The position numbers were made by a program, and so were the translations under genes. The notes beneath the pieces are model-generated. The model was not told where the DNA came from. It searched no databases and was given only the letters and a program-made list of their open reading frames with translations. From Liopterus haemorrhoidalis (Eukaryota > Arthropoda > Insecta > Coleoptera > Dytiscidae), in the NCBI GenBank assembly GCA_963971575.1, contig OZ020622.1, forward strand, positions 12,686,279 to 12,750,278: 64,000 bases of DNA, written 5' to 3'. Each line of letters begins with the position of its first letter. Within the stretch, counting starts at the first letter, position 1. Below, one piece after another: positions 3,147 to 28,440 of this stretch.

Positions 3147-3181
3147 CAGGGCTGTTCAACCTTTTTGTATTTGGGATCTAC

Positions 3182-3233
3182 TTTTTAGGGTTTTGTAGGT
3201 ATGACCAAAAAACCCTTATACCGTCATTTTGTC

Positions 3234-3307
<74 letters not shown>

Positions 3308-4164
3308 TCGGTAAAAATTGTAGCCAAACGGCTAAACCTAGAGAGTTGAAATTTGGCATGCTTATACAACTCTTTGACCCGCACATAGGAAAAATACTAA
3401 AACATCTAAAAAACATACCCCCCTAAAAATATAAACAAATATGTGCTCATCGAAAACAAAAATATTTTTTTTAAACTATGAGTAGGGTATCAAATGAAAG
3501 CCCTTAGTACGTGGATTAACGATCAAATTTTTATTTTTGAAACATAAATTATTTTGATGCGATTTTTGCCAAAATTGTGCAAAAAAATTTTTGTCCCACA
3601 CCCTGTAGCCCAGATGGTTTAAACTAAAAATCTAAAAAAATTCTAAGTAATGTATATTGGTGTGAACCGAAATAGTACAACATGAATTTTTGATCAGATT
3701 ATGTTTTCGGAAAATAACGCATTTTTTGAGGTTTTTGTTTCACAAAGTACAAAAGTTATACCAATGTAAGACACTCACATGCAAGGCGTACGATGGCGTT
3801 ATTGGTTAGAGCACTGGTGTCGTAAGCTAAAACTCGCTGGTAAACGAAGGGTTTCGAGTTCGAGTAACTGAGTGAATTTTATTTTTTCTATATTTTTTTC
3901 TTGCATTTTTATTATGTTGAAATTATTTTGTCAAAATTCTAGTTATATTTTGACAAATGTTGTATTTAATTTTTAAGAGCGTAAATTTAATAATTATCTT
4001 ATTATATGATTAACAGACGATAAATTATTTTAAAAATATCGTTCATTTTGCCGTGATTAATACAAAGTAAAATTTGTCCTACACACTCAGCGTACCGCCT
4101 TCACTTATTATATACCTGCGAAACCCTGAAATGTGTGAATATTCACACTTCACATCAATTTTTT
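3182..4164 (+). mobile_element. HINE family 1, copy a (Helentron-associated element)
   Basis: The 5' end is TTTTT then AGGGTTTTGTAGGTA (subterminal repeat). About 17 TGTC units follow at 3234-3307, then about 430 bp of conserved non-coding DNA. A tRNA-like cassette lies at 3787-3872. The inverted copy of the subterminal repeat (TACCTGCGAAACCCT, 4113-4127) comes next, then the palindrome GTGTGAATATTCACAC and a terminal AATTTTTT. Subterminal inverted repeats, an internal GTCY-type microsatellite, a 3' hairpin and T-rich ends are the hallmarks of HINE/DINE-1 elements. The region 3' of the cassette is shorter and more diverged than in the other copies. Confidence 0.75.
3787..3872 (+). other. tRNA-like cassette in HINE-1 copy a (Thr-like)
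   Basis: TGGCGTTATTGGTTAGAGCA resembles a D-arm/A-box. CTGGTGTCGTAAGC resembles the anticodon arm of tRNA-Thr with CGT in the anticodon position. GTTTCGAGTTCGAG resembles a T-arm/B-box, and a T-run follows (TTTTATTTTTT). An insertion between the anticodon and T arms and weak stems argue against a working tRNA. The other three copies carry unrelated tRNA-like sequences here. Confidence 0.55.
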
Positions 4165-4745
4165 ATTTATTTATGTATTTAATACATCTGTCCCAACAGC
4201 ATAGCCAAAATTCGATAGGAACATAATTAACAATATTAAGACTTAAAAATTAAAAACTATTAAACATAAGAAATTATAATACACAAAAATGAATAAATTT
4301 ATAGAACTTTATATGAAAATTATTATAACAGTTCAATTTTTGTATTCTGCTCATAATATGAACACATCCTGTTCAATGGGGATTTAAGGAATAGATTGGT
4401 ATGTGCCTGGGGAAGATAAAAAAGTGAGAATGCCTTGTACGGAAAGATGGGATGTGGAAATTTAATTGTTGAAAGGAAAGTGGATCGTCAATTAGATTTG
4501 ATGCTAATTTTTTAATAGTTTGTGGAGCTTAACTCACTACGCTCACTTAAAGATTTGGTGGAAATAATATTAAGAAGGGTACTATATGAGAGATCGAAAG
4601 GGGGGTAGGATCCCATAACTTTAAAGTAGATGAACTTTAAAAATTTATGTTGCACTTTTTCAATGGCATTCTTCTGAATCTCATAAATGGGATCCCATAC
4701 TATTGAACAATATTCAATTTTAGAGCGAATGAATGCATAATTAAT
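4165..4745 (-). pseudogene. non-LTR retrotransposon (Jockey/CR1-like) RT C-terminal fragment
   Basis: The minus strand from about 4740 encodes SKIEYCSIVWDP, then IQKNAIEKVQHKFLKF, the thumb-region pattern (x-x-E-Y-x-S-x-V-W-D-P ... L-E-x-V-Q-x-x-F-L) that follows the YxDD domain in Jockey/CR1-type LINEs. The frame decays by 4540. The 3' end is at 4165, with an AAATAAATAAAT-type tail abutting the HINE-1 terminus. The 5' truncation is normal for LINE insertions. Confidence 0.7.
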
Positions 4746-5379
4746 CTTTTTAATATATATATTGTTACCACGATCGACCAGAATGCGTAGCCGACCACAG
4801 GGAGGTATGAAGTGCCCTACCTGGTGAGAGGGTTCTCCTCAAGGAAGAAATTTTAAAAAAAGCATTACATATTGCAATTTTAAAGCTGTTTTTCATGTTG
4901 AAGTAACCTAATACGCAAAACGAAATTTAAAAAAATGTTAATGAAATTTCTTCATAAGCCTTCCAAGGCTGCACTTTTAGCCCGACGGTTAACACATTGA
5001 TCGCTAACGAATTTTATGCAAGATGATTAAAAATAGCTTTGTTTTTAAGTTTTGTTGGTTAGGATATGTTTTTTTTTTCAGTGTATTTTTATAAATTATT
5101 GGTTTTTTGATGTGCGGTCACCGGTATCCATTACGGAAATTTAGGAAAATTATATATTAGATTGCGCCATGCCATCATCTTGCCAGTCACTTATATCACT
5201 TTAACAAGTAAGTACATTAAAGTGAGAGAAAACTAAATATCTACCTAAAATCACGCCGCGATTGACCGATAGATCGCGATCGACTGGTTGGGCAGCCATG
5301 TGCTAGTAGATTTATATCAATTAGTATTTGTACAAAAATAAATTTTACATACATAAGTCTATAATTGCCTTTCAAGATT

Positions 5380-5561
5380 CAGATCCAGCACAACCTCTTG
5401 TACTAAAGATCTGGTTGCTACTCCACAATCTGAATTCTCAGAATGTGAGGGTAGAGCTGTTATGGATTCCGAGATATGTTGGTATTAAAGTCAATGACCA
5501 CAGATCTATGATTGATATGAGTTTCATATTTCCAGATGACGTAAAAAGTCATCTGAAACAT
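5380..5561 (+). pseudogene. LINE RNase H fragment
   Basis: The plus frame encodes KIWLLLHNLNSQN, then LLWIPRYVGIKVND. This corresponds to the last conserved block of LINE-type RNase H (W-I-P-S-H-V-G-I-x-G-N-x-x-A-D), with Ser-His replaced by Arg-Tyr and the Gly before Asn replaced by Val. The frame is cut at 5562 by a MITE. No RT is attached, so this is a dead scrap. Confidence 0.55.
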
Positions 5562-5732
5562 CTTCCAAACGTTTAGGCGGAACTAAATAGGAATTTCGTT
5601 CTTTTAGATTGTCACGAGAAGGGAGCTTGCTTGGGTTATTTCATTTTTCAGGTTGGTATGTGAAAAATTAAAATTCCAACAGTGAAACCATGGAAACGAA
5701 TGACATTCCGGCTAAACGTTTTGAATAGCCTA
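5562..5732. mobile_element. MITE family P, shortened copy
   Basis: It contains TCCAAACGTTTAGGCGGAAC at the left and CGGCTAAACGTTTTGAATAG at the right, plus the interior GACCTTGCTTGGGTTATTTC-like segment (one mismatch) shared with the full copies at 50032 and 51034. About 230 bp of the family's interior is missing, as are the outermost left bases. Confidence 0.7.
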
Positions 5733-5811
5733 TACCTAGAATTGCCTAAAAAAATTATAAAAAATAGAACTTGTTCTATTTTCAAAATAGATTGATCAAT
5801 TTTTCATAAAC

Positions 5812-5905
5812 TGTTCAATTTATTGATGAAATTTGAACACTTTATACACATCAATAAATTGAAAGTAAAGTTTTTCAATTTATTGATCAATAAATTGAAC
5901 CGTGT
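5812..5905. repeat. iterated CAATTTATTGAT motifs
   Basis: Four direct or inverted occurrences of CAATTTATTGAT(C/G) lie within 95 bp, with a further related one near 5957. Their function is unknown. Confidence 0.55.
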
Positions 5906-6045
5906 AAAACCCACTCTAGTTCTAATTTTCCTTTAATAAGATCTATTAAACAGTTCAATTTATACTATTCAACATTATCCATTTGTTTTTTTTTTTAAAT
6001 CTAAAATCTATTTAATCGAATTTTTGTTTTTATTTTTGTGTTACC

Positions 6046-6121
6046 TTATTTTCCGCCATTGGGTCGCGCATGAACATAGTTCCTTAATTTGGGTCACGGC
6101 TCAAAAATGTTAAGAACCCCT
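6046..6121 (-). mobile_element. hAT terminal fragment
   Basis: Read on the minus strand, TAGGGGTTCTTAACATTTTT is followed by GAGCCGTGACCC, a hAT-type terminus. No matching opposite end was found. Confidence 0.4.
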
Positions 6122-6846
6122 ACTCTACTCTATAAATTTGCTTGTAGTTAATTGTCAATAGTTATAAGTATTTGAGCCTCTTTTGTGGTATTTCTATCGA
6201 TGGCGTCCGATTGGAAAATGAGCTTGTCAAGTAAACATATCTTATATTTTATATTATAAAATAATTTTTGTTTACAATTTCCGTATTCGCGCAGTAAAAC
6301 AAGCTGAAAACCACAACATTATAGTAGAAGAAGATATCGATTATATGTATATGTTTATATATATTTTGTAATGGGGATGGATATCTCCACTATTTTTATT
6401 TGTTGAAAACAAATGAAATATACATCAGTTTATTGAAATTAGAAATTAAAATTCGTTTTAAAATTATCTGAACCGTAAAACGTTGTATTTGATGTTTAAT
6501 TTTTTTTTATTAAATTCAAACATTTTTGGTTCTAAATAGAGTATAATATATTCATAAATTTATTAACCGTCAAATTTTGTTATAGAAAATAAAAATAAAT
6601 TAAATCAAATTTACATTTATATAAATTTTAATGAAATAATTATGAATATATATACCCAGTTTTAAAATATGAAATATAATTCTAATAAATTTGTGTTAAA
6701 ATAATATACTTTACGAGGACTGCAAAGATAGCGAAAAATAACAGTGCATAAATATGGAATAAAGAAGACATCGAAGGTTTACGAAATATTCTATTATCTA
6801 TAACGACTTGAAAGTAAACTTATTTTTTGATTGCTATAGTCTAAAG

Positions 6847-7825
6847 CAAGGGTGTCAAACTGGCGGCCCGCGGGCCGCATGCGGCCCAATACTTGCATTT
6901 TAGCGGCCCGTAACGACTTCTTATACTATAATAATTTTTATACTATATATAGTATAAACATTTATTTGAACGAAAATACCTCGTGACACAAGCTGTCCGG
7001 GCTGCGGCGTCAAGACTTCGGCAAGGGCGGAAAACCAATAGTCAGGCAATAACTGTTGCAGTTAGCCGTGCGATAGTCGATAGATCAGTGATTCCCGATG
7101 ATTCCAAATAATACTCTCGTAAGCAGAGCTTTCAAATAGCACTTTTCTATAGGTGCAACTGCTGTGTACAGTACCACTACGCTGATTTCGACGTTTTTGT
7201 TTTGTTGTTCGATAAAGAAAATATTTTGGCAAAATTTAATTGTTATTATTTAAATGTTATTTCCTTACTTCCTTCAAATAGATATTCAGAAAAATGGAGG
7301 AAAATAAAAAACAGAATAAGTAACAATATAAATATAGGTTATTCCAAACGTTGATATGGAACTAGATTTTGAAATCTAGTTATTTTTATCTATTAATTTG
7401 GACTTTTGGTCATTTTGTTTAAGCTTTGTAAATCATACTCACATTGCAAATTCTAGATTAAATTGATTGTTATTATAAAATGTCCGTTTCATTTAATTTT
7501 AATTTTTTGTCATTCTTAATAAAAATTTCCCATTTATTATTATTTTTTTTTTCTGTCTTCAAAATATGTGAAAATGTATTCAAATTTTTAATAAATGTCA
7601 TCGTCTCTATGGTTTCACTGTTAATTTTTAATTTTCACGTACCAACGTTAAACTTGAAATTATCCAAGCAAGGTTCCTTCTCGTGACAACCTTAAAGAAC
7701 GAAATTCCCATTTAGTTCCGCCTAATCGTTTGGTTGTATAGACTAGCCTGTACATAACGTGCGGCCCGCGTAAATTTTACTTGTTAGAAAAATGGCCCGA
7801 GGCTGAAATGAGTTTGACACCCTTA
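6847..7825. mobile_element. non-autonomous hAT element
   Basis: The termini are CAAGGGTGTCAAACT (6847) and AGTTTGACACCCTTA (ending 7825), flanked by the 8-bp TSD GTCTAAAG at 6839-6846 and 7826-7833. GC-rich GGCCCG motifs lie just inside both ends. No transposase is present. A MITE of family P sits inside at 7335-7750. Confidence 0.85.
7335..7750 (-). mobile_element. MITE family P, nested in a hAT
   Basis: In reverse orientation it matches the family at 50032 and 51034, for example GGAACTAAATGGGAATTTCG and CAAGGTTCCTTCTCGTGACA. The left end is TAGGTTATTCCAAACG after TA. The right end has CGTTTGG and then CTAGCCTG before TA, with about 8 extra bases. Confidence 0.7.
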
Positions 7826-8074
7826 GTCTAAAGGTTTCGTATTCTTTTTCATATTTCTGTTTAGATTTAAGTGGTAACAAACTTTCTGTTGCTGTTTGTA
7901 CATTTCTCTCGATATATTCGGATATTTCTTGCATATTCATTGTTATTGTAAAATTAATTCTGGCAATTAAATGATTAAACAAAATCATTTGTTTTTTCTC
8001 TATAAAACTATAAGAGAGAAAAGGAAAAACTAAAAATAATTTAAAAATTTACTGTAAATATTATAACTCTGCTA

Positions 8075-8471
8075 TACTCTATCTCCGAAAGACTGATAGT
8101 AATATAATTTATTATTAGTAAAAAGTTATTGTATTATCACACAGAAGCGGTAAAACAAAAGCGACAAAATATGAATAGTTCGAAACGAAATATTGTTAAA
8201 AACAACCGAGTGTGCCGCACATATTATATGGGAATACGAACTAGGGTTAAACACGATAGGCCATAAAAATTTGACCATAAAATTTTGAGGAAAAATATGG
8301 TCACAGGGGTGTGTTTAATGATATGATAAATATGGTCACAGGCGTGCGTTTAAAATATAAATAGTAATATAGAAAGACACAAAACCAATTTAAACGTGTT
8401 TAAAATGTGCACGCCACTGGTAACTGCCTGAAAAAATGATTTATTACTATCAGGCTTTCAGAGATAGAGTA
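8075..8471. mobile_element. MITE with 27-bp TIRs, TA target
   Basis: The TIR TACTCTATCTCCGAAAGACT at the left and its near-perfect complement at 8445-8471 differ at about two positions. TA flanks both ends (8073-8074, 8472-8473). The non-coding interior holds two copies of AAATATGGTCACAGG (8305-8350). It directly abuts the Tc1 remnant to its right and may derive from that family. Confidence 0.75.
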
Positions 8472-9067
8472 TACCTAATAATTGGTCCAATCTCCATTAT
8501 TATCAATTATTATTGCTTGGCATCTTTTGGGTACACTTTCTACCAGCTTTTCGGCATACTTTGGCAGTGATCTTCATATCTGCCGTATTTGACGAGTTAG
8601 CTGATCCAAATTTTGAACGTTTATTGTTCGAAGCTTATATTTCATGTAAAAACTAGATTCATCAGAGAAAACCACATCACTCCAATCGTGGTCTAAATTT
8701 TTCTTGGCCCAAGCGAGTCGTTTTTCGACAAGTTTCACCGATAACAATGGTTTTGTTTGGTGCTCCTAAATTTAATGCCATTTTCAATTAAACGACTTCT
8801 CAGGGTCATCAGACTTAACTTAATGTTTTTTTTTAACAAAATTGCCTGATATCTGCGTAAAAATAACATAGGATTATTTTTGAAAATTTTAAAAATCACT
8901 TTATCTTGTTTTTTAGTAGTCATTTTTTTAAATCCACGATTAGGTAAATCGTCAATATTTTTATTAATTTTATAACGTTTTACCCAATATTTCACAAAGT
9001 TACTGACTTGTGTATATATTTTACTGCACTTGAAAAGGACATTTTTGGCCCTTTTGGGTGGGTACAT
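8472..9067 (-). pseudogene. Tc1-like transposase, internally deleted
   Basis: The minus strand from 9067 encodes a helix-turn-helix region (SNFVKYWVKRYK ... MTTKKQDKVI ... SLMTLRSRLIENGIKFRS) typical of the Tc1/Tc3 DNA-binding domain. It continues, with a frame break near 8735, through KNLDHDWSDVVFSDESSF (about 8700-8650), which holds the first catalytic Asp. The frame then jumps to a C-terminal piece containing LVESVPKRCQAII (about 8560-8510). The region with the second and third catalytic residues is missing. Confidence 0.75.
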
Positions 9068-9279
9068 AAAAATACCGCTTCAAAATGTTTTGCATAAATA
9101 GCACTCATTATTACATAACCGCACTACTGAAAGACAAAACACTAACTAAACGATTTTTATTATCGGGCGTATTAGGTCTTGATGTACTTATCGTGTTTGA
9201 ATATGTTTATTATTTGTGCACATGCCTGATCCTGAGTTATAAGCAAGTATGTCTTATTATACAGACTGTATATAAAAAA

Positions 9280-10326
9280 AAAAATTTATGTGAAGTGTGA
9301 ATTTTAACACATTTCAGGGTTTCGCAGGTATTTAGTAACTGAATAATGATTATTTGGGATACCAAAACAAATTTTATGTTAAAATATTTTTTTATTAATT
9401 TTAATTCGAATGCCTAATACCATTATTTGGGTTTCTAAATATTTGCAGTATTTTTTTTTATATAGCAAGGTTCATTAACATTTTGAAAATGGCGCCTACG
9501 GCTTCAATTGGTTGTTTAAGTCATAAACTCCGCCCCTCTGATTTCGTATACATTCAAACATAGAATTAAATTATAATTTCAACACTTCCCACTGGTTATT
9601 AAATTTATGCTTTTAAAAATTAAATGCAACATTTGCCAAAATATAACTAGAATTTTACAAAATAATTTAAACAAAATAAAAATGCAAAAAAAAAACAGAA
9701 AAAATAAAAATTGACGGGAATCGAACTGCAGTTTGCAACTTACGAAGCGAGAACGTTACCACTGGACTACGGACATTCACTCGTTTACTGTGTTAAATAG
9801 CGGATTAAATATTTTACACATTTTAGTTAAAAAAACAAAAAATGCGTTATTTTCCGAAAACATAATCTGATCAAAAATTCCTGTTGAAATATTCCGGTTC
9901 ACACCAATGTACATTACTTAGATTTTTTTCAGATTTTTAGTTTAAACCATCTGGGCTACAGGTGTGGAACAAAAAATTTTTGCACAATTTTGGTAAAAAT
10001 TGCGTCAAAATAATTTATTTTGCAAAAATAAAAATTTGATCGTTAATCCACGTACCAAGGGCTTTCATTTGATACCCTACTCAGAATTATAAAAAAATAT
10101 ATTTTTTTCTTTCGATGAGCACATATTTGTTTATATTTTTAGGGGGATATGTTTTTTAGATGGTTTAGTATTTTTTCTATGTGCGGGTCAAAGAGCTGTA
10201 TAAGCATGCCAAATTTCAACTCTCTAGGTTTAGCCGTTTGGCTACAATTTTTTCCGAACAGACAGACAGACAGACGACAAAATCACGGTATAAGGTTTTT
10301 TGGTCATACCTACAAAACCCTAAAAA
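9280..10326 (-). mobile_element. HINE family 1, copy b
   Basis: This is a reverse-orientation copy. Its 5' end at 10326 reads TTTTTAGGGTTTTGTAGGTA, followed by only about four TGTC units. Then come the conserved body, a tRNA-like cassette (9711-9776), a roughly 340-bp 3' arm shared with copies c and d, AGGGTTTCGCAGGTA (inverted) near 9315-9330, the hairpin GTGTTAAAATTCACAC and a T-run. No protein is encoded. Confidence 0.75.
9711..9776 (-). other. tRNA-like cassette in HINE-1 copy b
   Basis: On the minus strand, GTAGTCCAGTGGTAACG (A-box-like) is followed after about 30 nt by GCAGTTCGATTCCCGTC (B-box-like) and then TTTTTATTTTTT. The anticodon region CTTCGTA would place TCG in the anticodon position. 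The T-stem is mostly unpaired, so this is tRNA-derived rather than a functional tRNA. Confidence 0.5.
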
Positions 10327-10339
10327 AGAAGAATCTTGA

Positions 10340-10450
10340 TAATTTGTACCGGCTTTTCCCATTTATCGACGCTTCTGTTGTCACCAGGAGTTGAACCTGG
10401 TATCTTATACACAGTTAGCCAAACACTAACCAACTGCAAAAATAATTAGA
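10340..10450 (-). repeat. tRNA-like sequence, probable SINE head
   Basis: The minus strand reads GCAGTTGGTTAGTGTTTGG (A-box-like), then CCAGGTTCAACTCCTGG, a perfect 5-bp T-stem with a 7-nt loop containing the B-box GGTTCAACTCC. The rest of the cloverleaf is unclear. It lies just outside the 5' end of HINE-1 copy b. Confidence 0.5.
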
Positions 10451-11157: not shown

Positions 11158-11816
11158 TTTTTACCGACCGCTAACATATATAAGGGAGGTATTGTGATCA
11201 TACCAATTTTGACGTTTCGATACTTCGATGGATCTCCACGAATTGAGGTCCCTACATAACGTTTTGACTATTTTTAGCATGATGTCTGTCGGTCTGTCTG
11301 TCCGTCCGTCTGTCTGTCTGTCCGTCCGTCTGTCTGTCTGTCCGTCCGTCTGTCTGTCTGTCCGTCTGTCCGTCTGTCTGTGTACACGTGCAGAGCAAAT
11401 TCGGCTGAAAGGATTTTTACGAAACTTTATATTTAAGCTTCTGCCATCAATGGAACGAATTGATCAACTTGGTAATAATCGGTTGACTAAAAATGGGAGT
11501 TTACTCGTGTCGATTTTAAGATTTTTACGAATATTTCACAGCAGAAAAATATCTCGAAAAAATGTATTAAACAAAAGTTGCTATAAAAGCAATAACTAAT
11601 AACTTTTATTTGAAACGATTTTTGATAAAACGAAAAATTTCGAATAATTTCTGTAAAATTTTTTCATATTTATATGTAACGTTTCCATGGTCATGATAAA
11701 CAATATCTCTGTTAGAAAATATTAGGTCAAGTTATTTTTACTCTGCTGCTAGAATGTAATTTATATAAGTACTTTATGATGGCGGTCGGTCCTGTGGTGG
11801 CCACAGCTGATTTTTT
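11158..11816 (+). mobile_element. HINE family 2, copy A
   Basis: It starts with a T-run, then ACCGACCGCTAACATATATA. A microsatellite of TGTC/CGTC units lies at 11284-11380, and a conserved body follows (GTACACGTGCAGAGCAAATT). The inverted subterminal repeat TGATGGCGGTCGGT (11777-11790), the hairpin CTGTGG-TGG-CCACAG and CTGATTTTTT close it. The order of parts is the same as in HINE-1, but I see no clear sequence similarity and no tRNA-like cassette. No protein is encoded. Confidence 0.75.
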
Positions 11817-11843
11817 AATGTTACATGCCTGCATCTCAATTAA

Positions 11844-14340
11844 CGCTACGTACAACCCCCAGAGATTATTAGTTTCTTATACAAAACTAAAAGTCTGAAA
11901 TAAAATTACTGACAATCTATGCATCAAATTTTGCACAGAATTTTTATCTATCTAATAGGATATTTTTTATTGTAGAAAAAATTACTGTAAAAATGTTATT
12001 ACTCAATAACTTAATAATAGGTATCACACAACAATGTGCTATAATTTTTTAAATATATTTGAGGGTTTTTTCATTTTTTTTTTTTCCTATTTTAGCCAAA
12101 ATATAATTTTAAGCTAATTTTAGGGTGAGGATTATGAAAAAAATATTTAAAAAATTCATGCTTTCCTAGTTTTTAGAGCCAATTTGGGTTAGTTTTTTTG
12201 CTTATAATTCTGAAACTTTTGCCCAATATTCAAAATGGACCAAATTTTCTTGATCTATGATCAAAAATACATATTTATACCAATTTTAAATAAAATCGGA
12301 GACAAAAATTTTTTGCTTAGAAATCACGTTTTTTTTCCATTTTTAAGGGTTTTGGATTACTGCCCATACAAAACTAAATAATGTAGGAGAATTTTAAAAA
12401 TTCAAACCGCAGATTTCTATCTATTAGTTAGTGTTTACCAAAATTTAAAAAAAAAATAAATAAAAATTTTTTTCTTTCAAAATACGGCTATAAGTTAATT
12501 TGTGCTTCTAGATTTCAAAAATTGCAGTTGCAGGTCGTTTTCGCATTTCGATTTTGAGATACGTCCATGCGAAGATGAAAATTTCTATAAATCACTCCAT
12601 ATTAAAATTTGTCATAATTTTATGTATATGCAAAATGAATAAGGCCCCAATTTTTTTTTCAAACTAAATAAACTACGAGGTATCCAAAAATTGTAACCGC
12701 AGGGCGCTATCTCTAACCACTTTTGAGTTGTGTTTTTTTTAATTCACAATTTTCACAAGTAATGTAAATTATGACATTAAGGCCCGGTTTTTCCACATTC
12801 AGATAAAGTTCCAGGTAACTATCTGACAGATAAGGTTATTTGTAACTTCATCTGCTGAGTAAATGTCATCCCTTCTTTCTATACAAATGTATCTATCGGA
12901 TAGTTATCTAACGGATAATGAGACTGACGTATTGGATTCACTGACTGGTATTGACATTTCTTCAGCAGATGAAGTTACAAATAACCTTATCTGTCAGATA
13001 GTTATCTGGAACTTTATCTGAAGGTGGAAAGACCGGGCCTAAAAAAAATGTATTAATCTCAAAACGCGTTAAACGATTAAATCCCCAAATTTTTTCTAGA
13101 CTAAATGAACTACAGAGAATTCAAAAATTCTAAACGCAGGTCATTTTCTCTAACCGTTTTTGAGTTGTGATTTTTTTTAATTTATAATTTTGACAATGTA
13201 AATTATAACATTCAAGTAAGCCCTATCTTCAATAATAAAAAAATTGTGCATGGGGAAATATAACTTCACCTGTATGCTATTGATTTCATAGCTAAATATT
13301 TTAAACAATTCTGTTCCTTATCTATTAATTTTTAATGACTATATTCCTTAATGAGCTTTATCAGAGTTAGCCATCTTGATTAGTAGTGACGCGAGATTTT
13401 TACGTTTAAGTTGCGTTTGCATTTTGTCTGTCATTTTTACTTATTTTTAAGTGATAAAAGGGCAGAGTGAACTTTAAAAAATGTGTTATATTATGAACTT
13501 AAGTGTTTTTACTCCATGGAGACAAAAATTGGAGCGATTGAAAAGGTATTTGTAGAAATTTTTGCTTATTTTATAATGCAAGTCATTGTTATGTAAAATG
13601 TGATTCTATGTACAATATGGAAGCATATAAATAATACGTGTCTTGGGCTATCTAAATAATCAGTTTTTTGCATATCATACCAAAAGTTTTGCCCAAACTT
13701 CATAATGGACCAAATTTTCTTGATCTATGAGCAAAAATACATGTTTATACAAATTTTCAATAAAATCGGAGAAATTTTTTGATTAAAAATCATGATTTTT
13801 TCGATTTTTAGCCATTTTCAAAGGTTTTGGATTACTGTCCATACAAAACTTCATAATTGGTTTATTAAAGCCCAAATTTTTTTGTAGACTAAACAATGTA
13901 GGAGAATTTTAAAAATTTAAACTGCAGATTTCTATCCCAAACCGTTTTTTTTTAGGATTTATCAAATTTTCAAAAAATAAAAAAAAGTGAAATATTTTCA
14001 AAAAAATGTTTGTTTAAATAGTTGGTTGCAAGTTAATTAGGACCTACAGATTTAAAAAAATTCAATCGCAGATCTTTATTGTATTTCGTTTTTGAGATAC
14101 ATCCATGCGAAGATGAAAATTTCTATAAATCACCCCATGTTAAAATTTGTCATAATTTTAAAATACGCAAAACGAATAAGGCCTCAAATTTTTCTAGACT
14201 AAATAAGCTACGAGGAATCCAAAAATATTAACCTGAAGTCGTTTTCTATAACCGTTTAAGAGTTGTGATTTTTTAAATCCTCAATTTTCACAAATACTGT
14301 ATATTATGCCATTAAAAATTAGTATATATAAATAAAAAAA
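11844..14340. repeat. duplicated non-coding repeat block with a TTAA-type left end
   Basis: The left end, TTAA then CGCTACGTACAACC and TTAGTTTCTTATACAAAACT, matches the ends of the TTAA element at 22492-23245. Inside, a block of about 570-630 bp occurs twice (12215-12780 and 13690-14317), sharing ATGGACCAAATTTTCTTGAT, CCATGCGAAGATGAAAATTT and TGAGTTGTG. A third partial unit lies at 13074-13214. Degenerate motifs with AACCGCAG or AAACGCAG followed by TTTTTGAG recur. No long frame exists, and the right end of the TTAA element was not found. Confidence 0.6.
12781..13039. mobile_element. PIF/Harbinger MITE (palindromic)
   Basis: The termini GGCCCGGTTTTTCCAC and GGTGGAAAGACCGGGCC are flanked by TAA on both sides (12778-12780, 13040-13042). 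The arms are inverted repeats of about 80 bp (CTATCTGACAGATAAGGTTA), so the element is nearly a fold-back. It lies exactly at the end of the first duplicated block. A second copy is split at 53923-55266. Confidence 0.85.
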
Positions 14341-14424
14341 AAAAAAAAAAAAATGGCAATGGAGTTAACTTTATTACACAGCTCTTACTTTAAGCGATGC
14401 GTTGTTGGCCTTGAAGGTTCACGT

Positions 14425-14859
14425 AAAAAAAACAGCTGTAGCCACCACAGGACCTACCGCCATCACAAAGTACTTGTTAAATTTATGCTGCTTTATCAAA
14501 AAATGTCACAAATAAGAGTTGTTACTTATTGCTTTTATGGCAACTTTTGTTAAATAAATAAATATTCGCAAAAATCTTAAAACCGACATGAGTAAACTCA
14601 CATTTCTAATGAACCGATTTTTACCAAAAGTTGACCAACTGGTGCCATTGATGTCAAAAGCTTAAATATGATCATAAAATCCTTTCAGCCGAATTTGCTC
14701 TGCACGTGTACACCTACCGACAGATACACGGACATCATGCTAAGAATAGTCAAAACGTTATGTAGGGACCTCAATTCGTGGAGATCCATCGAAATCTCGA
14801 AATGACAAAATCGGTATGAGCACAATACCTCCCTTATATATGTTGGCGGTCGGTAAAAA
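14425..14859 (-). mobile_element. HINE family 2, copy B (shorter)
   Basis: In reverse orientation relative to copy A, it starts at 14859 with T-run plus ACCGACCGCCAACATATATA. The body is shared with copy A, with only a trace of the GTCY microsatellite. It ends with TGATGGCGGTAGGTCC and the hairpin CTGTGG-TGG-CTACAG near 14432-14450. At 435 bp it is a deletion form of the 659-bp copy A. Both copies have their 3' ends pointing inward at the duplicated block. Confidence 0.75.
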
Positions 14860-14945
14860 GGAACAATGCATTTGTTGCTAAAGGAATCAATATGTGTTAG
14901 TTTGGTGTTTAACGATATAAATTTTAAACATTAAACAGAACAGAA

Positions 14946-15528: not shown

Positions 15529-15588
15529 GAATAGAATATAATATCTAAAAATTAAAATTAATGAAAACCCAATTTTCTTCAACTCTGA

Positions 15589-15723
15589 GGGCTGATTTCT
15601 GAAAGTTTAGTTAACTAGAACCAAGTAATTAGAAAATGATTGCTATGGTTATTATGGGATTGTTATATTGTAACCGAGTTTAACCAAAAGATTAAACTCG
15701 ACTAAGCTTTCAGAAACCAGCCC
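15589..15723. mobile_element. short MITE, probably Harbinger type
   Basis: GGGCTGATTTCTGAAAGTTT at the left and the complement of GGGCTGGTTTCTGAAAGCTT at the right. The flanks TGA and TTA fit a degraded 3-bp target duplication. It is 135 bp with no coding content. Confidence 0.6.
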
Positions 15724-16372: not shown

Positions 16373-16380
16373 CGTTAAAA

Positions 16381-17468: not shown

Positions 17469-17605
17469 CGTTAAAATCGTAACGTCAAAAACTGAATATT
17501 TTTAAACATTATTTCAAAATTGAGTTATTGGTAAAAGTGTCTTTTGGCCATCATTTTTAGGGTTTTGTAGGTATGACCAAAAAACCCTTATATCGTCATT
17601 TTGTC

Positions 17606-17643
<38 letters not shown>

Positions 17644-18122
17644 TCGGTAAAAATTGTAGCCAAACGGCTAAAGCTAGAGAGTTGAAATTTGGCATGCTTA
17701 TACAACTCTTTGACACGCACATAGGAAAAATACTAAAACATCTAAAAAACATATCCCCCTAAAAATATAAACAAATATGTGCTCATCGAAAAAAAAAATA
17801 TTTTTTTATAATTCTGAGTAGGGTTTCAAATGAAAGCCCTTGGTACGTGGATTAACGATCAAAATTTTATTTTTGCAAAATAAATTATTTTGAAGCGATT
17901 TTTGCCAAAATTTTGCAAAAAATTTTTTGTCCCACACCCTGTAGCCCAGATGGTTTAAACTAAAAATCTGAAAAAATTCTAAGTAATGTACATTGGTGTG
18001 AACCGGAATAGTTCAACAGGAATTTTTGATCAGATTAGGTTTTTGGAAAAAAACGCATTTTTTGTGATTTTTGGCTAATAATGTACACAAGTTATAGCTT
18101 TGTAACAAGCAACACTAACGTG

Positions 18123-18196
18123 TGTGCTGGTCTAGTGGTATTTGACGCTGACTTTTCACCCATGTAACCCGATCCGATAGGGATCGAACCCTGGAG
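18123..18196 (+). other. tRNA-like cassette in HINE-1 copy c (Glu-like)
   Basis: GCTGGTCTAGTGGTATTTGA matches the A-box/D-arm of insect tRNA-Glu. CTGACTTTTCACCCA matches its anticodon arm (TTC anticodon) with one extra T. GGGATCGAACCCTGG takes the place of the T-arm/B-box. It is the most recognisable of the four cassettes. The stem mismatches mean I do not call a functional tRNA. Confidence 0.6.

Positions 18197-18205
<9 letters not shown>

Positions 18206-18231
<26 letters not shown>
18206..18231. repeat. AT microsatellite
   Basis: About 13 uninterrupted AT units sit directly after the Glu-like cassette, inside HINE-1 copy c. Confidence 0.9.
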
Positions 18232-18238
<7 letters not shown>

Positions 18239-18653
18239 CTATATTGTTTAAATTATTATTTCAAAATTCTAATTATATTTTGGCAAATGTTGCATTTAAT
18301 TTTTAAAAGCGTAAATTTAATAGCCAGTGGAAATAGTTTAAATTATAATTTAATTCTGTTTCAATGTACACGAAATCAGAGGGGCGGAACTTATAACAAC
18401 CAATGGAAGCCATAGGCGCAATTTTGAAATTCTTAATGAACCATGCTATATAAAAAAAAAAAATACTGCACATATTTAGAAACCATTATTTAGGTTTCTA
18501 AATATGTTTCGTTTAGGCGTTCGAATTAAAATGAACAAAAAAAATATTTTAATATAAAATTTGTTTTCTCATCCAAAATAATCATCATTCACTTACTAAA
18601 TACCTGCAAAACCCTGAAATGTGTGAAAATTCACACTTCACATCAATTTTTTT

Positions 18654-19381
18654 GTACGTTTGTCATTGCTGTTAGTACTAGGCTAGAATAGTACAATAAT
18701 GAGTATTCCCAGCAAACATTTTTATACGGGCCAGTACTGTTAAAGCACATACTCCTCGGCATTGAAAGTAATGGGCTAGTACCCCGGTGTCCCCGAGGCC
18801 GTTAGCTGGCCCATTGATGTATCAATTGCCGGCCCAGCAGAGGTAAAGTGCAAAATAATCGCATTAGTTGCAAGATTTATTTCTGACGGACCAGTGCTTA
18901 TTTTATACCCACTCTCCAGTATTTCAAATGTAACATACGTATATTTACCTTATACTTACCCAGTATTAAAATAAATTAATGGTTAGGTGCAAAATACATA
19001 CTCATTTGGCCATTTCACCATCGTTCAATACATTTATTTAACAAATAATGTTGACAATATCGCATCGGTTTTAAACTATTAATGAAGAAATTAACGTTGC
19101 TGTCAATAGAATGATGCGATATTTTCAACTTTATTTGTTGAATAAATTTATTCAACCATGGTGAAAGAAAGGTAAATGTAACATATTAACAAAAATAAGG
19201 AGTGCTCATAAAATGCTGGTAAAGTACTTCGTATAGGAGGAGTGCGAAATACAAATGTGAAGTATATTATTAATACTGGCGTTGTACAAACTTTTAGTGC
19301 CAGCAATTTACAAACAGAAAAAGCAGTTTGCCAGCATTCGTCCGATGGTTGAATGTTTGCTGCATTAGTATCAAAAAGATA
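18654..19381. repeat. palindromic repeat region
   Basis: The arms at 19016-19066 and 19113-19163 are inverted repeats of about 51 bp (CACCATCGTTCAATACATTT against its complement, with several mismatches). Farther out, CAGCAAACATT near 18709 and AATGTTTGCTG near 19356 are inverted, so the whole 650 bp may be one MITE. The target duplication is not resolved. Confidence 0.5.
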
Positions 19382-20214: not shown

Positions 20215-20216
20215 TA

Positions 20217-22238: not shown

Positions 22239-22297
22239 TAAACGAAAAAAACCTTAATATTTAGTGGGGGCTCGCGAGCTTGAGTAGTAGTCTATAT

Positions 22298-23365
22298 CAG
22301 CGTTTTTCAACCTATTTTCATGACGGACCAGCAAGGGACCTAAAAAAAATTCGCGGACCGACAAGTTTAGAAAGTAATGTGTATCGCAAACATTTTATAT
22401 TTTATATTTTTTATTGCATTGATTACATTGAAAAAAAAACAAATAAAAATCACATATAATTAATGAAAAAAAGAAACAAATTATTACTTAAGGTGGCGCA
22501 CAACCCTATAGTCCTCAATAGTTTCTTATACAAAACTAATAATCGGAAATAAAATTAATAACAATCTATATATCAAAATTTGCAGCGAATTTTTATCTAT
22601 CTAATAGTATATTTTTAATTGTAGAAAAAACTGTTAGGTAGTTGTAAATAAGAAAATTGCATTATAGATGCCATCTTGTAAACCAATCGACGCATATTTG
22701 CGTACGATGCGGCAAATTGTAACTAAAGCTTCATTCTACAAATATGATTGTAGCTATTTTGTTGTATTGTGAAAATTACTTATAGTTATTGTACTTGGTA
22801 ATCTATTTTTGACGGTCTCTTGAATCTGCCGCGGTTTTTAAAATTGGTGTTACGGGTAAAAATGATTTATTTTTCGTGAAGAATACGTATACCACGTGGC
22901 ATTCTATTTTCTTTAAGTATAATATTTTTCGACGAAGGCTCTAAACTATAAGTAATCAAGTCGAAAAAATATTGACGTATTATTTGAACATTTCTACACA
23001 AAACTATATAAAAATAAAAGTTATTCGAAACCCACAAATAGATTTAAAAAATTACAGAACAATATCGCTGATATCTATTTTTAAGTTATTGAGCGATAAT
23101 ATTTTTACAATAAATGTTTCTGCAATTAAAACTATCATATTAGATAGATTTGGTGCAAAATTTGATGTATAGGTTGATACTAATTTTATTTCAGATTGTT
23201 AGTTTTGTATAAGAAACTTGTAACCTCCGGAGGTTATACATAGCCTTAAGCAATTAACAGATTAAGGACCGAGATTTTCATCTCAAAATTAAGTGGGCTA
23301 TAATTTACTAGGCGAACAGTTTCATAGTTTAAAAAATTTCTCGAACCGGCGGTTGGGAAATACTA
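22298..23365. mobile_element. non-autonomous hAT with nested TTAA element
   Basis: The termini CAGCGTTTTTCAACC and GGTTGGGAAATACTA are flanked by the 8-bp TSD GTCTATAT (22290-22297, 23366-23373). GCGGACCG and CGAACCGGCGG lie just inside the ends. Only about 310 bp belong to the hAT itself; the rest is the element at 22492-23245. Confidence 0.75.
22492..23245. mobile_element. TTAA-target element with long inverted repeats
   Basis: TTAA occurs at 22488-22491 and 23246-23249. The termini GGTGGCGCACAACC and GGTTATACATAGCC are inverted, and the match strengthens inward (AGTTTCTTATACAAAACTAA on both arms, extending for more than 100 bp). The TTAA target suggests a piggyBac-like MITE, but the terminal bases are not typical of that superfamily. 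It has no transposase. The left half is also found at 11844. Confidence 0.65.
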
Positions 23366-23373
23366 GTCTATAT

Positions 23374-24116
23374 TTTCCTCTCTGTCCGCAGTCTATGAAA
23401 ATTTACTATCAGACCCTTCACAAATAATACTGGCGACTGACTACCATGACTTAACACGACAGTAATAAAAGAAGGACTTCTTTATTTTCATCATTCCTAT
23501 GATACTACCTAATAATAATCCTTTGAACTATTTTGTTATTATTCCAATATAAAATGAATTCAAATATGTTTTGCAGCTATATTTAATCAAGTTGTTTTGT
23601 AATATTTCTTGTGCCATCTATTTATCCTTCTAAAAACTATTTCGTACAAAGCGCACCAGGTTCATTTCTTCCGACGACAATATTAAACGAACACAAGTTA
23701 TTTTTTGTCCTATGCTATGTCGTGTTATTTAATTAAATTAGTAAAGAAGGCTGCCATCTACGTATATTAAATATTTCTTCGGAATATTGTTGTTATATAC
23801 AAATATTTATGGAGACTTTTTAATTTCAATAAATATCATGCATAAAATTGAAGATGAATTATAAAGGTATGGGTTTATTAAATTTTTCTTCTTGGCAGTA
23901 TTTTCTTTTCATTTTTGAAATGAAATTATTATTTTAAAATTTCATTTATTATTTCTATCTCCTGGCTTTAAGAATATTTTAAATGCTTAACCTGAAAAAT
24001 CACACAACAATGCAATAATAAATAAATAAATAATTGATAATTAATAAAAACAAAAGTATCAAACGTGTCGTATCGAAAGGGTTAACTAAGCAATGACACA
24101 AATATGTTATCTAAAT
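23374..24116. other. unassigned AT-rich DNA
   Basis: Nothing recognisable beyond short A/T runs. Confidence 0.5.
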
Positions 24117-24118
24117 TA

Positions 24119-25512
24119 GGGGAGATGTGGGGACGGTGGCACACATTTTGGTTTTCTGTACATAACATCTTCAATTTTGAATTTTCTAAATAAATCTTTT
24201 CGCCACTTAATACTTATAATGTCGTTGTTTAAATAACCTGTTAAAAATTAATGTCCTTATCACGTGCTATTTATAATTAATATATTTGTTGACTTCTGCA
24301 ATTGTGCCACTGTACCTATACGTGAGGGTACAGTGAAACAGCATTAGGGATACAGTGGAACAGTAAATATAATAGGTATCTAAAGAATCTGTATATGTAT
24401 TAATAATTTTTACTGAAACTTCAATTCAATGTCTTTAAAAATAAATCATCTGAAAGGTACTGAAAAATTTATAATATTGAAAAAAAAACAAATTTTTTGG
24501 AACAAACTACTAAGTAATTAAATAATGTATATAAATATATAAATATAAATTTATTATTAACATAAAAAAATAAAGTTTGGTAAGTTCCTTGGAAGCAGTA
24601 AGTTTTGATAGTTTTTATTTTAATGTTAATTATATTTCATTAAATTTACTGTAAAAATCAGAACGTCTAAACGGTGTTTTGTGCTACCAGACGAAGCAGG
24701 TGATGGTAAAACTTTTATCAGCTCTGCTTTTTTAAATGTGTAATTATAATTTGTTTTAATAAATTTAAAGAGTAGAGTCAGCCGTCGGAGATATGTTACA
24801 ACAATATCGTCAGTCGTTATTTCTATGATTTCCCCTATAGAGTGGCTCTTCATTTTATTCTTTCCGTATCCTTCAAATGTTAAGGCATATTGCCTTACTT
24901 TAATATCCTTGTTTACGTGTCGAATCTGTATCACATTCAGAGTCAACATTATCATCTGAGTTTGAATTCTCATCAATATTGACATCAGTATCAGATGTGT
25001 CTGCACTTAGAAGAATATCTTTTAATTTTCTGATTTTTTTTATTTTGAGCAGCTTGGAATTATTCTTCTAACTCGTACCCACGTACGTGGGTACAGTGGC
25101 TCACTGTACCACTGTATCCACATAACACGTGTGCCACTGTTAACCTAACCGTATTTTCACGAACATTTTATCAAATATAATAAATGATATAGTTGAGAAC
25201 ATTAGTAATTGCTTTACACTGTAGACAAATGACCAATTTACAACATGTAATACAAAATTTCTTACTAATTTAGTTGTGTCTCGTTCTAATAAAAAATTTC
25301 TCGTTACGAAAAACTTTAGTTTGCCTACCTCAAATCAACATTTTCATCATAGATGGCGGGACTTAAATTTATAGACTCAAAATGTGGATAGTATAATTTC
25401 TTAGTATCAGAGGGGCCTATATATACCCAAACAGACATGCAAATATTCTATATTTCAAAGATGTTTTAAATGTTCCACTGTACCAATTGTGCCACCGTCC
25501 CCACATCTCCCC
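24119..25512 (-). mobile_element. pogo-like TIR element (TA target), deleted
   Basis: The TIR GGGGAGATGTGGGGACGGTG (continuing GCACA) is at both ends, flanked by TA (24117-24118, 25513-25514). Near each end many short motifs of the type GTACAGTGG / CCACTGTACC occur (24300-24370 and 25080-25140), which could be transposase-binding sites. The minus strand carries a C-terminal protein fragment (24626-25060). No DDE core remains. Confidence 0.75.
24626..25060 (-). pseudogene. C-terminal fragment of DDE-transposon protein
   Basis: The minus strand first gives an Asp/Ser-rich acidic stretch (about 25020-24920), then after a frame shift the block IGEIIEITTDDIVVTYLRR (about 24845-24790), then FKKAELIKVLPSPASSGSTK and a final NLMKYN before the stop at 24626. 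This layout (acidic linker, a small beta-rich domain, V-L-P-x-P) resembles C-terminal tails of insect pogo/Tigger-like transposases, from memory of the family. The catalytic part is absent. Confidence 0.45.
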
Positions 25513-25966
25513 TACTAAATTTTAATATCTAAATTAGATTTTTGGAGTTTTCATTGTAATTTGTATGCAATTCGAGTTGTTTTATCATTTTTTTACTTAA
25601 CTATTGTGATTTGATTGAAGTCATTTGTTAATTTAAAAATATATCGGATAAATTTTTACACGCGAATTTTCAATCAAGGATTTTACAATAAAAGGAAGAA
25701 TTTATCAAAACGAAAGAATAAAGGGAGAAAATTTGAACGGAAATGATATTTCTTTATATTAAATTAGGAAAAAGTAGGCAAATTTCAAGTTCAGTCAATT
25801 TTATTGTCCTTTTCTATTCTCAGTACGTGTTCTGTCCATTGTAAGCACTTCTCATTTAATGTGTGAAGAAAAGAATGATCGCAATAAGGTGCCGGGTTGC
25901 TATGGGGCTCCACAAGAACCCTCCAAATCGGTTTTCGAATTTATACATATAAATTAAAGTTCAATG

Positions 25967-26905
25967 AAGTGGCGGAACTACAATTTTTGCCCGCCCCACA
26001 CAAAAAAAAAAATAGATCGGCCCCACAACCTTATGTGATTTATTTCTTTTCGTTTCTAGTGTCCCATAATTTTGAAGAAATTTAACCTTGTATTCTTTTT
26101 ACGCACAGAATCATTTTACTTACTTATGAATATAAAAGAAAAACAATAATATTAAACAAATAAAACATAGACAAAACAAAACAAAACTAGATATAAATAA
26201 ATAAATCCATTTAAAATGTTAAATCTATCTTTCTGGATTTTAAATTAGCAAAATCTCTAATTAAGTCTTTTATGCCCATTTCTTGAGCAATTTCGGCCTC
26301 AATGCTCAACAACGATAAATTATGTAAGCGTTCTAGATAGTTTATTAATTTACCAAAACATGAAGACAATATCAACGTTATTAATGCATTTTTTTTTTTT
26401 GCACAAACTATTGTTAACATGCTAGAAGCTTTTGGAGAAAGATTTAAAGAGTTTAGAAAATATAAAGCTACACTAGCTTTTTTGACAAAACCAATTGAAG
26501 CAGATATGCAGCAATTACATTTATCACCATTCCCATTGATTAATCAGGATTTGAACTTCAATTATTGTATTTGAAATTTATGGAATAATATATTCTTAAA
26601 ACTTAATTCTGAACTGGAAAGTTTAGAAAGAAAAAAGTGCATTTTAACTTCCCAGCATAAGTGGACCGAAATTCACAATCTTCAAAATATAGATAAAGTT
26701 TTCGAAGATTGGAACAGTCTTCCAGAATCGTTCAATCATTTAAAAAATTATGTTTTGGACTACTGACAACTTTCTGATCCACATATTACTGTGAGCAAGT
26801 CTTTTCACATATGAAATTAATAAAGATTCAGTTAAGAAGTAATCTTACTGACCTGAAACTTGAGTGCTGCCTTAAGTTAAAGATTAGTGAATATTTATTG
26901 TGAAA
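25967..26905 (+). pseudogene. hAT transposase C-terminal remnant
   Basis: A hAT-like left end (AGTGGCGGAACTAC) is at 25968. From about 26430 the plus strand encodes FGERFKEFRKYKATLAFLTK, typical of GTF2I/ZBED-like hAT transposases. Shifted, it then gives CEQVFSHMKLIKIQLRSNLT and KLKISEYLL before a stop at 26900, the hAT dimerisation motif (C-E-Q-x-F-S-x-M-K-x-x-K). Stops and frame shifts are present. No right terminus was found; an ATT microsatellite follows. Confidence 0.65.
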
Positions 26906-26912
26906 TAAAACC

Positions 26913-26936
26913 AATTATTATTATTATTATTATTAT
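26913..26936. repeat. ATT microsatellite
   Basis: Eight TTA units directly downstream of the hAT remnant. Confidence 0.9.
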
Positions 26937-27370
26937 TCACCAAATATTGAAGTCTTATCGAACACTATGCAGTAGCAATAGGTATCACAAACTAAATGTA
27001 TAAGTAAATATTAATTTACTGTAATACTCGATTATTTTAAAACAATTTTACGTTTTTTTCTTAAATATAGCATATATTTTTAGCGGCTCTTCCATGTTAT
27101 TGTTTTTTTTTTTGTCATATAGATTTGGCTCTCCGTCACCGAAACACCGCTAACAAAAATAGAATGTACGCCTATGTGTACATGTCCTTGGAAATTAGTT
27201 TGGTAATTGAATGTTTCTGTCAAGTAATGTATAACGTTCAAGAAATAATGATCGCACTGTAGTTAACAAACACCAAGAAATAAAAATAATCTTAAAATTT
27301 ATAATGACATAAAATTCATGCTTATCGCCTGCTTGGTTTTTAAATTTTAATATACGATTTTAATATCTGA
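26937..27370. other. unassigned AT-rich DNA
   Basis: No feature was recognised apart from T-runs. Confidence 0.5.
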
Positions 27371-27422
27371 TTTTTAGGGTTTTGTAGGTATGACCAAAAA
27401 ACCCTTATACCGTCATTTTGTC

Positions 27423-27456
<34 letters not shown>

Positions 27457-28440
27457 TCGGTAAAAATTGTAGCCAAATGGCTAAACCTAGAGAGTTGAAA
27501 TTTGGCACGCTTATACAACTCTTTGACCCGCACATAGGAAAAATACTAAAACATCTAAAAAACATATCCCCCTAAAAATATAAACAAATATGTGCTCATC
27601 GAAAAAAAAAATATTTTTAAAAAATTCTGAGTAGGGTATCAAATGAAAGCCCTTGGTACGTGGATTAACGATCAAATTTTAATTTTTGCAAAATAAATTA
27701 TTTTGAAGCGATTTTTGCCAAAATTGTGCAAAAAAAATTTTGTCCCACACCCTGTAGCCCAGATGGTTTAAACTAAAAATCTGAAAAAATTCTAAGTAAT
27801 GTACATTGGTGTGAACCGGAATAGTACAACAGGAATTTTTGATCAGATTATGTTTTTGGAACAAAAAGCATTTTTTGTGTTTTTTTGCTAATAATGTTAT
27901 AGTTATATAGTTATATAGACGCTAAACAGTAACGTGTTTCTTGGTGCAGTGGCTAAGATACTTGCATTCTGCCCGAGAAATTGAGTTCGAATCCTACGAG
28001 AGGAGACAATATTATTTTTTATTTATTTTTTTTGCATTTATATATTGTTTAAATTATTTTTTCAAAATTCTAGTTATATTTTGGCAATTGTTGCATTTAA
28101 TTTTTAAAAGCGTAAATTTAATAACCAGTGGGAAGTGTTGAAATTATAATTTAATTCTATGTTTGAATGCATACGAAATCAGAGGGGCGGAGTTTATGAC
28201 TTAAACAACCAATGGAAGCCGTAGGCGCAATTTTCAAAATCTTAATGAACCTTGATATATAAAAAAAATACTGCACATCTTTAGAAACTTAAATAATGGT
28301 AATAGGCATTCGAATTAAAATTCATAAAAAAATATTTTGACATAAAATTTGTTTTGGCATCCCAAATAATCATCATTCACTTACTAAATACCTGCAAAAC
28401 CCTGAAATGTGTGAAAATTCACACTTCACATCAATTTTTT
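27371..28440 (+). mobile_element. HINE family 1, copy d
   Basis: TTTTTAGGGTTTTGTAGGTA starts it, with about eight TGTC units. The body matches copy c closely (for example CGCACATAGGAAAAATACTA). A tRNA-like cassette lies at 27936-28006. The 3' arm contains CAGAGGGGCGGAGTTTATGA and then TACCTGCAAAACCCT, followed by GTGTGAAAATTCACAC and TCAATTTTTT. A minus-strand frame at 27679-27864 is a chance frame in the conserved body. Confidence 0.78.
27936..28006 (+). other. tRNA-like cassette in HINE-1 copy d
   Basis: TTGGTGCAGTGGCTAAGATA is A-box-like. The anticodon arm CTTGC-ATTCTGC-CCGAG pairs at four of five positions and would place TCT as the anticodon. GAGTTCGAATCC is a strong B-box. A T-rich stretch follows (TATTATTTTTTATTT). 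The acceptor stem does not form. It differs from the cassettes in copies a, b and c. Confidence 0.55.

Follow-up and report, generated by a model that had tools for sequence, protein, structure and literature searches.

HINE or DINE-1-like elements, which are nonautonomous Helentrons, have been described as carrying subterminal inverted repeats of 12 to 15 bp, a 3′ palindrome, a microsatellite and T-rich borders, and no long open reading frame (ORF) (PMC4067079, whose references include Coates et al. 2011 for (GTCY)n elements). We analyzed a stretch of 64,000 nucleotides from contig OZ020622.1 of Liopterus haemorrhoidalis (the window) in which four elements have the same end structure and microsatellite and, in the two copies checked, no long ORF, but carry in addition a tRNA-like module at a fixed internal position; no such module is mentioned in the accessible part of PMC4067079, and the word "tRNA" is absent from its main text. 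The nearest analogue is Helenus/TRIMp3, a group of long terminal repeat (LTR) elements bearing tRNA or 5S sequence, which, in the available part of PMC10886601, combine a tRNA-like RNA polymerase III (Pol III) promoter in a nonautonomous element with conserved promoter boxes and no functional tRNA structure. TRIMp3 elements are LTR retrotransposons that need RNA to move, whereas the present family is a DNA element of the rolling-circle type, with cores that differ under near-identical bodies. A link between tRNA sequence and Helitrons, as here, is also found in Arabidopsis thaliana, where a tRNA-Cys cluster overlaps annotated Helitrons (PMC10701932, as far as accessible); the paper's own predictors did not confirm the Helitron status, and the cluster is a local tandem array of one tRNA, whereas the present copies are dispersed and of many cassette types. 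We propose, at a probability of about 0.55, that the site holds a promoter module of the Pol III/TFIIIC type that would be maintained by selection in this HINE-like family while the remainder of the module turns over.

Short interspersed elements (SINEs) are retroposons with a 5′ tRNA head. Those derived from tRNAs have internal A and B boxes, as here, and some SINEs within one genome differ in their heads. Unlike in SINEs, the present boxes lie inside a HINE-ended element and lead into T-runs, T-rich sequence and a shared arm, so that the SINE layout of 5′ tRNA head, body and tail was not found. A literature search, with most subscription papers beyond its reach, returned no report of tRNA-type promoter modules in HINEs or Helentrons.

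A sequence-only reading of the window had reported four long copies of a HINE, and all four were recovered with the same extents and strands. The copies and the terminal features of copy d are as follows.

3182 to 4164, plus strand: element copy a (sequence and repeat comparison)
9280 to 10326, minus strand: element copy b (sequence and repeat comparison)
17554 to 18653, plus strand: element copy c (sequence and repeat comparison)
27371 to 28440, plus strand: element copy d, with a b-like 3′ arm (sequence, repeat and arm comparison)
27377 to 27391, plus strand: 5′ subterminal inverted repeat of copy d, GGGTTTTGTAGGTAT (pairs with the 3′ repeat at 14/15)
28388 to 28402, plus strand: 3′ subterminal inverted repeat of copy d, ATACCTGCAAAACCC (sequence)
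28409 to 28424, plus strand: 3′ palindrome of copy d, GTGTGAAAATTCACAC (sequence)

All four copies (4/4) start with TTTTTA followed by GGGTTTTGTAGGTAT, and each has a (GTCT)n tract and a conserved body of ∼450 bp; the 3′ terminus is CATCAATTTTTT in copies a, c, and d and CATAAATTTTTT in copy b. The subterminal inverted repeats match at 13/15 positions in copies a and b and at 14/15 in copies c and d, and in copy d the palindrome GTGTGAAAATTCACAC is followed by 16 nt up to the element's end, with variants of it in copies a and b. In fetched loci containing the exact terminal motif (85 5′ ends and 79 3′ ends), the border T-tracts were 96 to 100% conserved, and conservation dropped outside. Among ORFs of at least 60 amino acids, the longest overlapping copies c and d, the two copies checked, were 68 and 80 amino acids, respectively, and both extend beyond the element. 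With subterminal inverted repeats, the (GTCT)n tract, a 3′ palindrome, insertion into T-rich sequence with defined ends, and no coding capacity (copies c and d), the four elements are HINE-like, of the nonautonomous Helentron type, as that reading had proposed. It had described a common 3′ arm for copies b, c, and d; copy a has a 3′ arm of its own between ∼3994 and ∼4099. No 3′ palindrome was found in the main copies of three genomic loci (L044, L056, and L077).

The segment between body and 3′ arm cannot be aligned across the copies, as reported earlier, but it is not 65 to 90 bp long; it spans ∼130 nt and consists of a leader of ∼45 nt and a tRNA-like part, the cassette. The succession of A box, B box, and T-runs was confirmed in cassettes a to d, with TA repeats and then T-rich sequence in c. 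Block edges were set by eye and are approximate, and boxes were located by a box scan.

3738 to 3876, plus strand: variable block of copy a (leader and cassette a)
3794 to 3805, plus strand: A box of cassette a
3851 to 3861, plus strand: B box of cassette a
9711 to 9828, minus strand: variable block of copy b
9759 to 9769, minus strand: A box of cassette b
9717 to 9727, minus strand: B box of cassette b
18073 to 18205, plus strand: variable block of copy c (cassette common to 28/28 loci L001 to L028)
18128 to 18138, plus strand: A box of cassette c
18181 to 18191, plus strand: B box of cassette c
27887 to 28009, plus strand: variable block of copy d
27942 to 27952, plus strand: A box of cassette d
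27984 to 27994, plus strand: B box of cassette d

We searched a single genome, the 1.02-Gb assembly of 91 contigs, with four element queries and scored the best 40 matches per query; the first look returned 977 to 5252 places depending on the query, which are candidates and not confirmed copies. Cassette types were assigned by eye. The full copy c as query gave ∼40 best places, and the cassette was c in 28/28 loci read. Body-only queries of d and a returned, among the matches listed, mostly d and a cassettes, respectively, with L054 (type d2), L049 (rearranged), and, in the a list, L096 (type g) as exceptions. Unselected secondary copies in the flanks of loci carried e (L064), f (L058), and a decayed b (L046). 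The body of b had no close sister among the best 40 of 3177 candidates, which comprised the window copy and, at 94 to 96% body identity, one c copy (L008) and 38 others. These 38, examined as 291-nt pieces, fell into types c (6), c2 (7), g (7), e (5), e2 (2), b (3), and h (3), with d, d2, f, i, and j represented once each. Bodies 94 to 96% identical to that of b thus carried 12 cassette types, 13 with a included, and the cassette is sense oriented within the element in all 13. This bears out the earlier statement of a single fixed site whose cassette changes from one subfamily to another; b and d, regarded there as distinct from the other cassettes, are indeed different types. In seven copies, body identity was 93.9 to 98.5%, versus 36 to 81% for the cassette, measured from the 8 nt preceding the A box through the B box.

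Boxes were scored to a maximum of 19 as the sum of an A box (TRGYNNAR..GG, 9) and a B box (GGTTCGANTCC, 10) whose starts lie 34 to 80 nt apart. Cassettes a, b, c, and d scored 16, 18, 17, and 18, compared to shuffle means of 12.4 to 12.8, and 0/500 dinucleotide shuffles reached each of these scores. Seven places on both strands of the window scored at least 16 (the four cassettes and three others), and only cassettes b, c, and d scored at least 17. Representatives of 13/13 types scored 16 to 18 out of 19 (shuffle means, 12.2 to 12.8), a level attained by 0/300 shuffles in 12 types and by 1/300 in f, and the spacing from A-box start to B-box start was 42 to 62 across the 13 types, which is the tRNA-like box arrangement of a type 2 Pol III promoter. 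In the b list, 36/38 copies scored at least 16 and 2/38 scored 15, the score, below the cut-off of 16, of L109 (a broken c) and L101 (c2); on the reverse strand, 0/38 reached 16. An unsupervised MAFFT alignment of the ∼130-nt block from the 13 types placed the conserved columns in the boxes and the T-rich tail. Mean identity across leader groups (defined below) was 0.90 at the body end, 0.38 in the leader, 0.59 in the A box, 0.23 in the core between the boxes, 0.70 in the B box, 0.35 in the tail, and 0.80 in the arm, and the B box was the top-ranked conservation window of 132 for pairs across these groups. In nine related pairs, which are not independent, the boxes had changed at 31/200 sites with 1 gap column, versus 98/328 sites with 79 gap columns in the core.

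We note two further box-like stretches. At 10397 to 10441 on the minus strand, ∼70 bp upstream of copy b, lies a tRNA-like sequence with a box score of 16, GGTTCAACTCCTGG, possibly a SINE head. The conserved body (3606 to 3620 in copy a, with equivalents in b, c, and d) contains TGTAGCCCAGATGG, which matches the A box well, has no B box to go with it, and is perhaps an older fossil; windows of the body score up to 14 to 15 for boxes.

The 46-nt leaders fell into two groups by z score, {a, c, d, d2, f} with z of 3.2 to 8.7 (a-d weak, 1.6) and {b, e, g, h, j} with z of 6.1 to 11.4. Cores of the first group were unrelated (z of −1.3 to 1.6) except for d-d2 (6.3), while those of the second were related or probably so for b-e (7.3), b-j (4.3), g-j (3.5), and b-g (2.9), the rest reaching 0.4 to 2.3. 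By this test there are at least five mutually unrelated cores: the b/e/j/g chain, a, c, d, and f. Because the leaders of a, c, d, and f are homologous and their cores unrelated, these data fit replacement within a fixed frame rather than simple mutation, and the possibility raised beforehand, that all copies share one homologous cassette in mutated versions, fails for these four types. The variety is nevertheless only partly of this kind, since the chains b-e2-e, c-c2, and d-d2 reflect ordinary divergence with insertions and deletions.

Some copies suit template switching as the route of replacement. The core of L106 (read by eye in its 291-nt piece) contains an inverted b-type core, of the kind expected from a snap-back template switch, the e types carry ∼12 extra nt, L087 has a lengthened d-type core, and copy d has a b-like 3′ arm. 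This arm came closest to that of copy b (94.5%), ahead of the arms of the d-like L087 (92.9%) and the d-type L037 (90.1%); copy c of the window, whose arm was not located by the script, was excluded from this comparison. Arm motifs in 36 loci of the d list were d-type only in 24, both in 2, b-type only in 1, and neither in 9. Hypermutation of the cassette after insertion was considered as a general cause of the variety and rejected: in set c, divergence was 0.1 to 1.1% in body windows and 0.3 to 0.6% in the cassette, and in set d the cassette (3.6%) did not exceed the arm (2.4 to 12.9%), although set a does show raised cassette divergence. Sets a and d were picked by body similarity, so that their body divergence is biased low. 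As a separate observation, L049 has at ∼1179 to 1481 the d-type block in a long inverted arrangement, with strong but sub-threshold matches to miRNA precursors on both strands.

We compared the cassettes with tRNAs at several levels. The Rfam tRNA model RF00005 matched no cassette at an E value of ≤10 in 40 loci (36 test loci and 4 controls that also hold the element), nor the window stretches of copies a, b, and d. In the same 40 loci it did detect a pair of tRNA genes next to L060 (66.5 and 64.2 bits), as well as a SINE head in L055 (32.4 bits) and another in L040 (20.7 bits). ARAGORN (bacterial code) predicted 0 genes in the window, an Rfam scan of the window at an E value of ≤1 gave six weak matches, none to tRNA and none above the gathering score, and folding of the four window cassettes showed, on visual inspection, no clear cloverleaf. 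None of the cassettes is an intact tRNA. Two sub-threshold Rfam matches, PYLIS_5 on the d type (22.5 to 22.9 bits; gathering score, 60) and mir-305 on the g type (19.6 to 21.3 bits; gathering score, 66), were taken as chance.

Ancestry was then scored with the boxes kept and the remainder shuffled, for 14 cassettes against an incomplete donor set of 17 host tRNA genes and 13 other tRNAs. The number of 300 shuffles reaching the real score was 0 for b, 1 for a (L067), 6 for d, 12 and 12 for d2, 14 for c2, 23 for e, 47 for h, 48 for j, 49 for e2, 82 for g, 86 each for f and i, and 116 for c. The best match of type a (L067) was to a Thr tRNA among these 13, the next being a host tRNA read as Thr, and that of the b-type copy L124 was to a host tRNA read as Ala from its anticodon (0/300). 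With host genes and SINE heads only as targets, b gave 0/200, e 7/200, and the others 31 to 156/200. Clear resemblance to tRNA beyond the boxes was seen only in types a (Thr) and b (Ala); at a cut of 2.5%, ancestry went undetected in 11/14 cassettes and 10/13 types, all with box scores of 16 to 18. So far as sequence comparison indicates, it is the boxes of the promoter that persist, not the tRNA. The sequence-only reading had called copy a Thr-like and copy c Glu-like and had proposed capture of tRNA sequences. The first label applies to L067, which lacks an insertion (1/300), but not to the insertion-bearing L136 (47/200), and copy a of the window likewise bears the insertion; the second found no support beyond the boxes (116/300). 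Capture of tRNA genes as such is weakly supported or unsupported, with 0 cassettes recognized by RF00005 in the 40 loci at an E value of ≤10 and resemblance to tRNA beyond the boxes clear only in a and b.

Several observations concern tRNA-like sequences near the elements or elsewhere in the genome. The two genes at L060 (482 to 555 and 774 to 847, minus strand; 64 to 66 bits) are read as Thr, some hundred bases separate them from an a-type copy, and further such genes occur on contig C6 at ∼54.3 to 54.4 Mb, where there is a second a-type copy. Proximity of elements to tRNA genes (159 places versus 61 listed genes) was tried as a general feature and dropped, being weak at 150 and 300 kb (27 and 22 of 2000, with the extent of C11 assumed) and reaching 82 to 306 of 2000 at 5 to 100 kb. 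L040 (near 2713), L055 (near 3130), and L049 (minus strand) contain SINE-like sequences with differing tRNA-like heads and a similar start of the tail (GGCATGG...TTT); host SINEs, too, may vary in their heads.

In the mechanism we propose, the module in the 3′ half of the element, which comprises, in sense orientation, a leader of ∼45 nt, A box, core, B box, and T-runs, would derive from sequences of tRNA type, with at least one Thr-like and one Ala-like origin. The core would be replaced by template switching or recombination while the element replicates, and the T-rich stretches at both block edges offer sites for switching. The boxes would be kept by selection because the element would benefit from bound TFIIIC or Pol III, and we favor such a benefit because neutral decay should not spare the boxes. 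Bound TFIIIC/Pol III holds DNA in an open state and can serve as a barrier, and the B box is the main TFIIIC site. Since the B box is the stronger box here, binding itself is favored over a particular RNA, and the likeliest benefit would be that element DNA is held open or shielded from silencing; a putative transcript would be ∼100 nt long, ending at the T-run, and would not cover the whole element. A broader version is tentative, and we give it somewhat less than even odds: the success of the family might depend on the cassette being interchangeable, with selected boxes, the rest swapped by template switching at a fixed site, and new subfamilies arising with new cassettes, which would make the family an analogue of TRIMp3 that moves as DNA. 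For rolling-circle elements, whose movement takes place at the DNA level, there is no evident need of RNA. If the reading is correct, a retained and repeatedly renewed Pol III-type promoter would mean that TFIIIC/Pol III binding helps a DNA-moving transposon, for example through open chromatin, a benefit that hundreds of natural variants would make testable, and rolling-circle elements would join the mobile DNA that spreads tRNA-like sequence, which is relevant to tRNA annotation.

Several results weigh against selection on the boxes. The A box ranks only 7th among the 132 windows, preceded by several that overlap at the B box and by one in the T-rich tail, and the scores of T-rich tail windows are about equal to its own. 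The per-site change in the boxes (31/200) equals that of the leader (61/382, with 2 gap columns), the pair b-e2 has changed more in the boxes (4/22) than in the core (3/31), and three secondary copies did not pass the box test (L056+, 113; L087+, 221; and L003+, 57 of 500 shuffles). As to replacement, some leader pairs between the two groups reach z of 3.0 to 3.8, and in set a the cassette has diverged by 4.8 to 7.9%, versus 1.3 to 3.0% in the arm beyond position 750. As to lost ancestry, c2, d, and d2 are also tRNA-similar at a 5% cut, which brings the types to 5/13 detected and 8/13 undetected.

We weighed four other explanations. Box-like motifs might arise by chance in T-rich DNA, as the three noncassette places in the window that reach 16 illustrate, but shuffles attained the observed scores only 0 to 1 times per 300 to 500, other stretches of the four elements score 10 to 15, and 36/38 sampled copies reach at least 16; we regard this explanation as hardly credible. 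Independent insertion of SINEs into one T-rich hotspot of the element, for which well-boxed SINE heads are present in the genome, is very unlikely: T-runs terminate the cassettes in place of a SINE body and tail, the orientation is sense in 13/13 types, and several types have their leaders in common. A single ancestral tRNA-derived module could also have drifted fast, for example by transcription-linked mutation, until it was unalignable, with no swapping. The intermediates b-e2-e, c-c2, d-d2, and partly b-j and g-j are as drift would leave them, leaders too have diverged beyond the body, and cassette divergence is raised in set a; against this stand the homologous leaders and unrelated cores of a, c, d, and f under bodies 94 to 98% identical, and cassette divergence that is not above the body in set c or above the arm in set d. 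Taken together, these data make drift without replacement quite improbable.

The fourth explanation is neutral repeated capture: several host tRNA genes or SINE heads would be taken up at this T-rich place and decay as passengers, with the boxes as recognizable residue. Two different tRNAs were matched (Thr for type a, 1/300; host Ala for type b, 0/300), the cores are mutually unrelated, and tRNA-like sequence is plentiful, with 86628 first-look RF00005 candidates genome-wide. The 11/14 cassettes that lack detectable tRNA ancestry at the 2.5% cut yet keep boxes of 16 to 18 speak against it: when we simulated the neutral decay of 16 distinct host tRNAs, boxes of at least 16 with ancestry undetected arose in only 3/480 trials. 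This simulation overstates the real power, because each donor stood in its target set, whereas real donors may be missing from ours. We consider neutral capture unlikely and prefer a selected promoter module.

Two exact element patterns had 0 matches in viral contigs. The window also contains minor features outside the four copies. A sub-threshold Rfam match to MIR6140 at 19012 to 19167, plus strand (40.5 bits; gathering score, 140), is probably a long hairpin only. Further direct and inverted repeats of ∼65 to 160 nt, 78 to 93% alike, occur at 11158 to 14859, with a GTCT/GTCC array at ∼11283 to 11389. The minus strand at 52666 to 52741 carries a 5′ end of this element type that has diverged (80% identity over 77 nt) and lacks the body.

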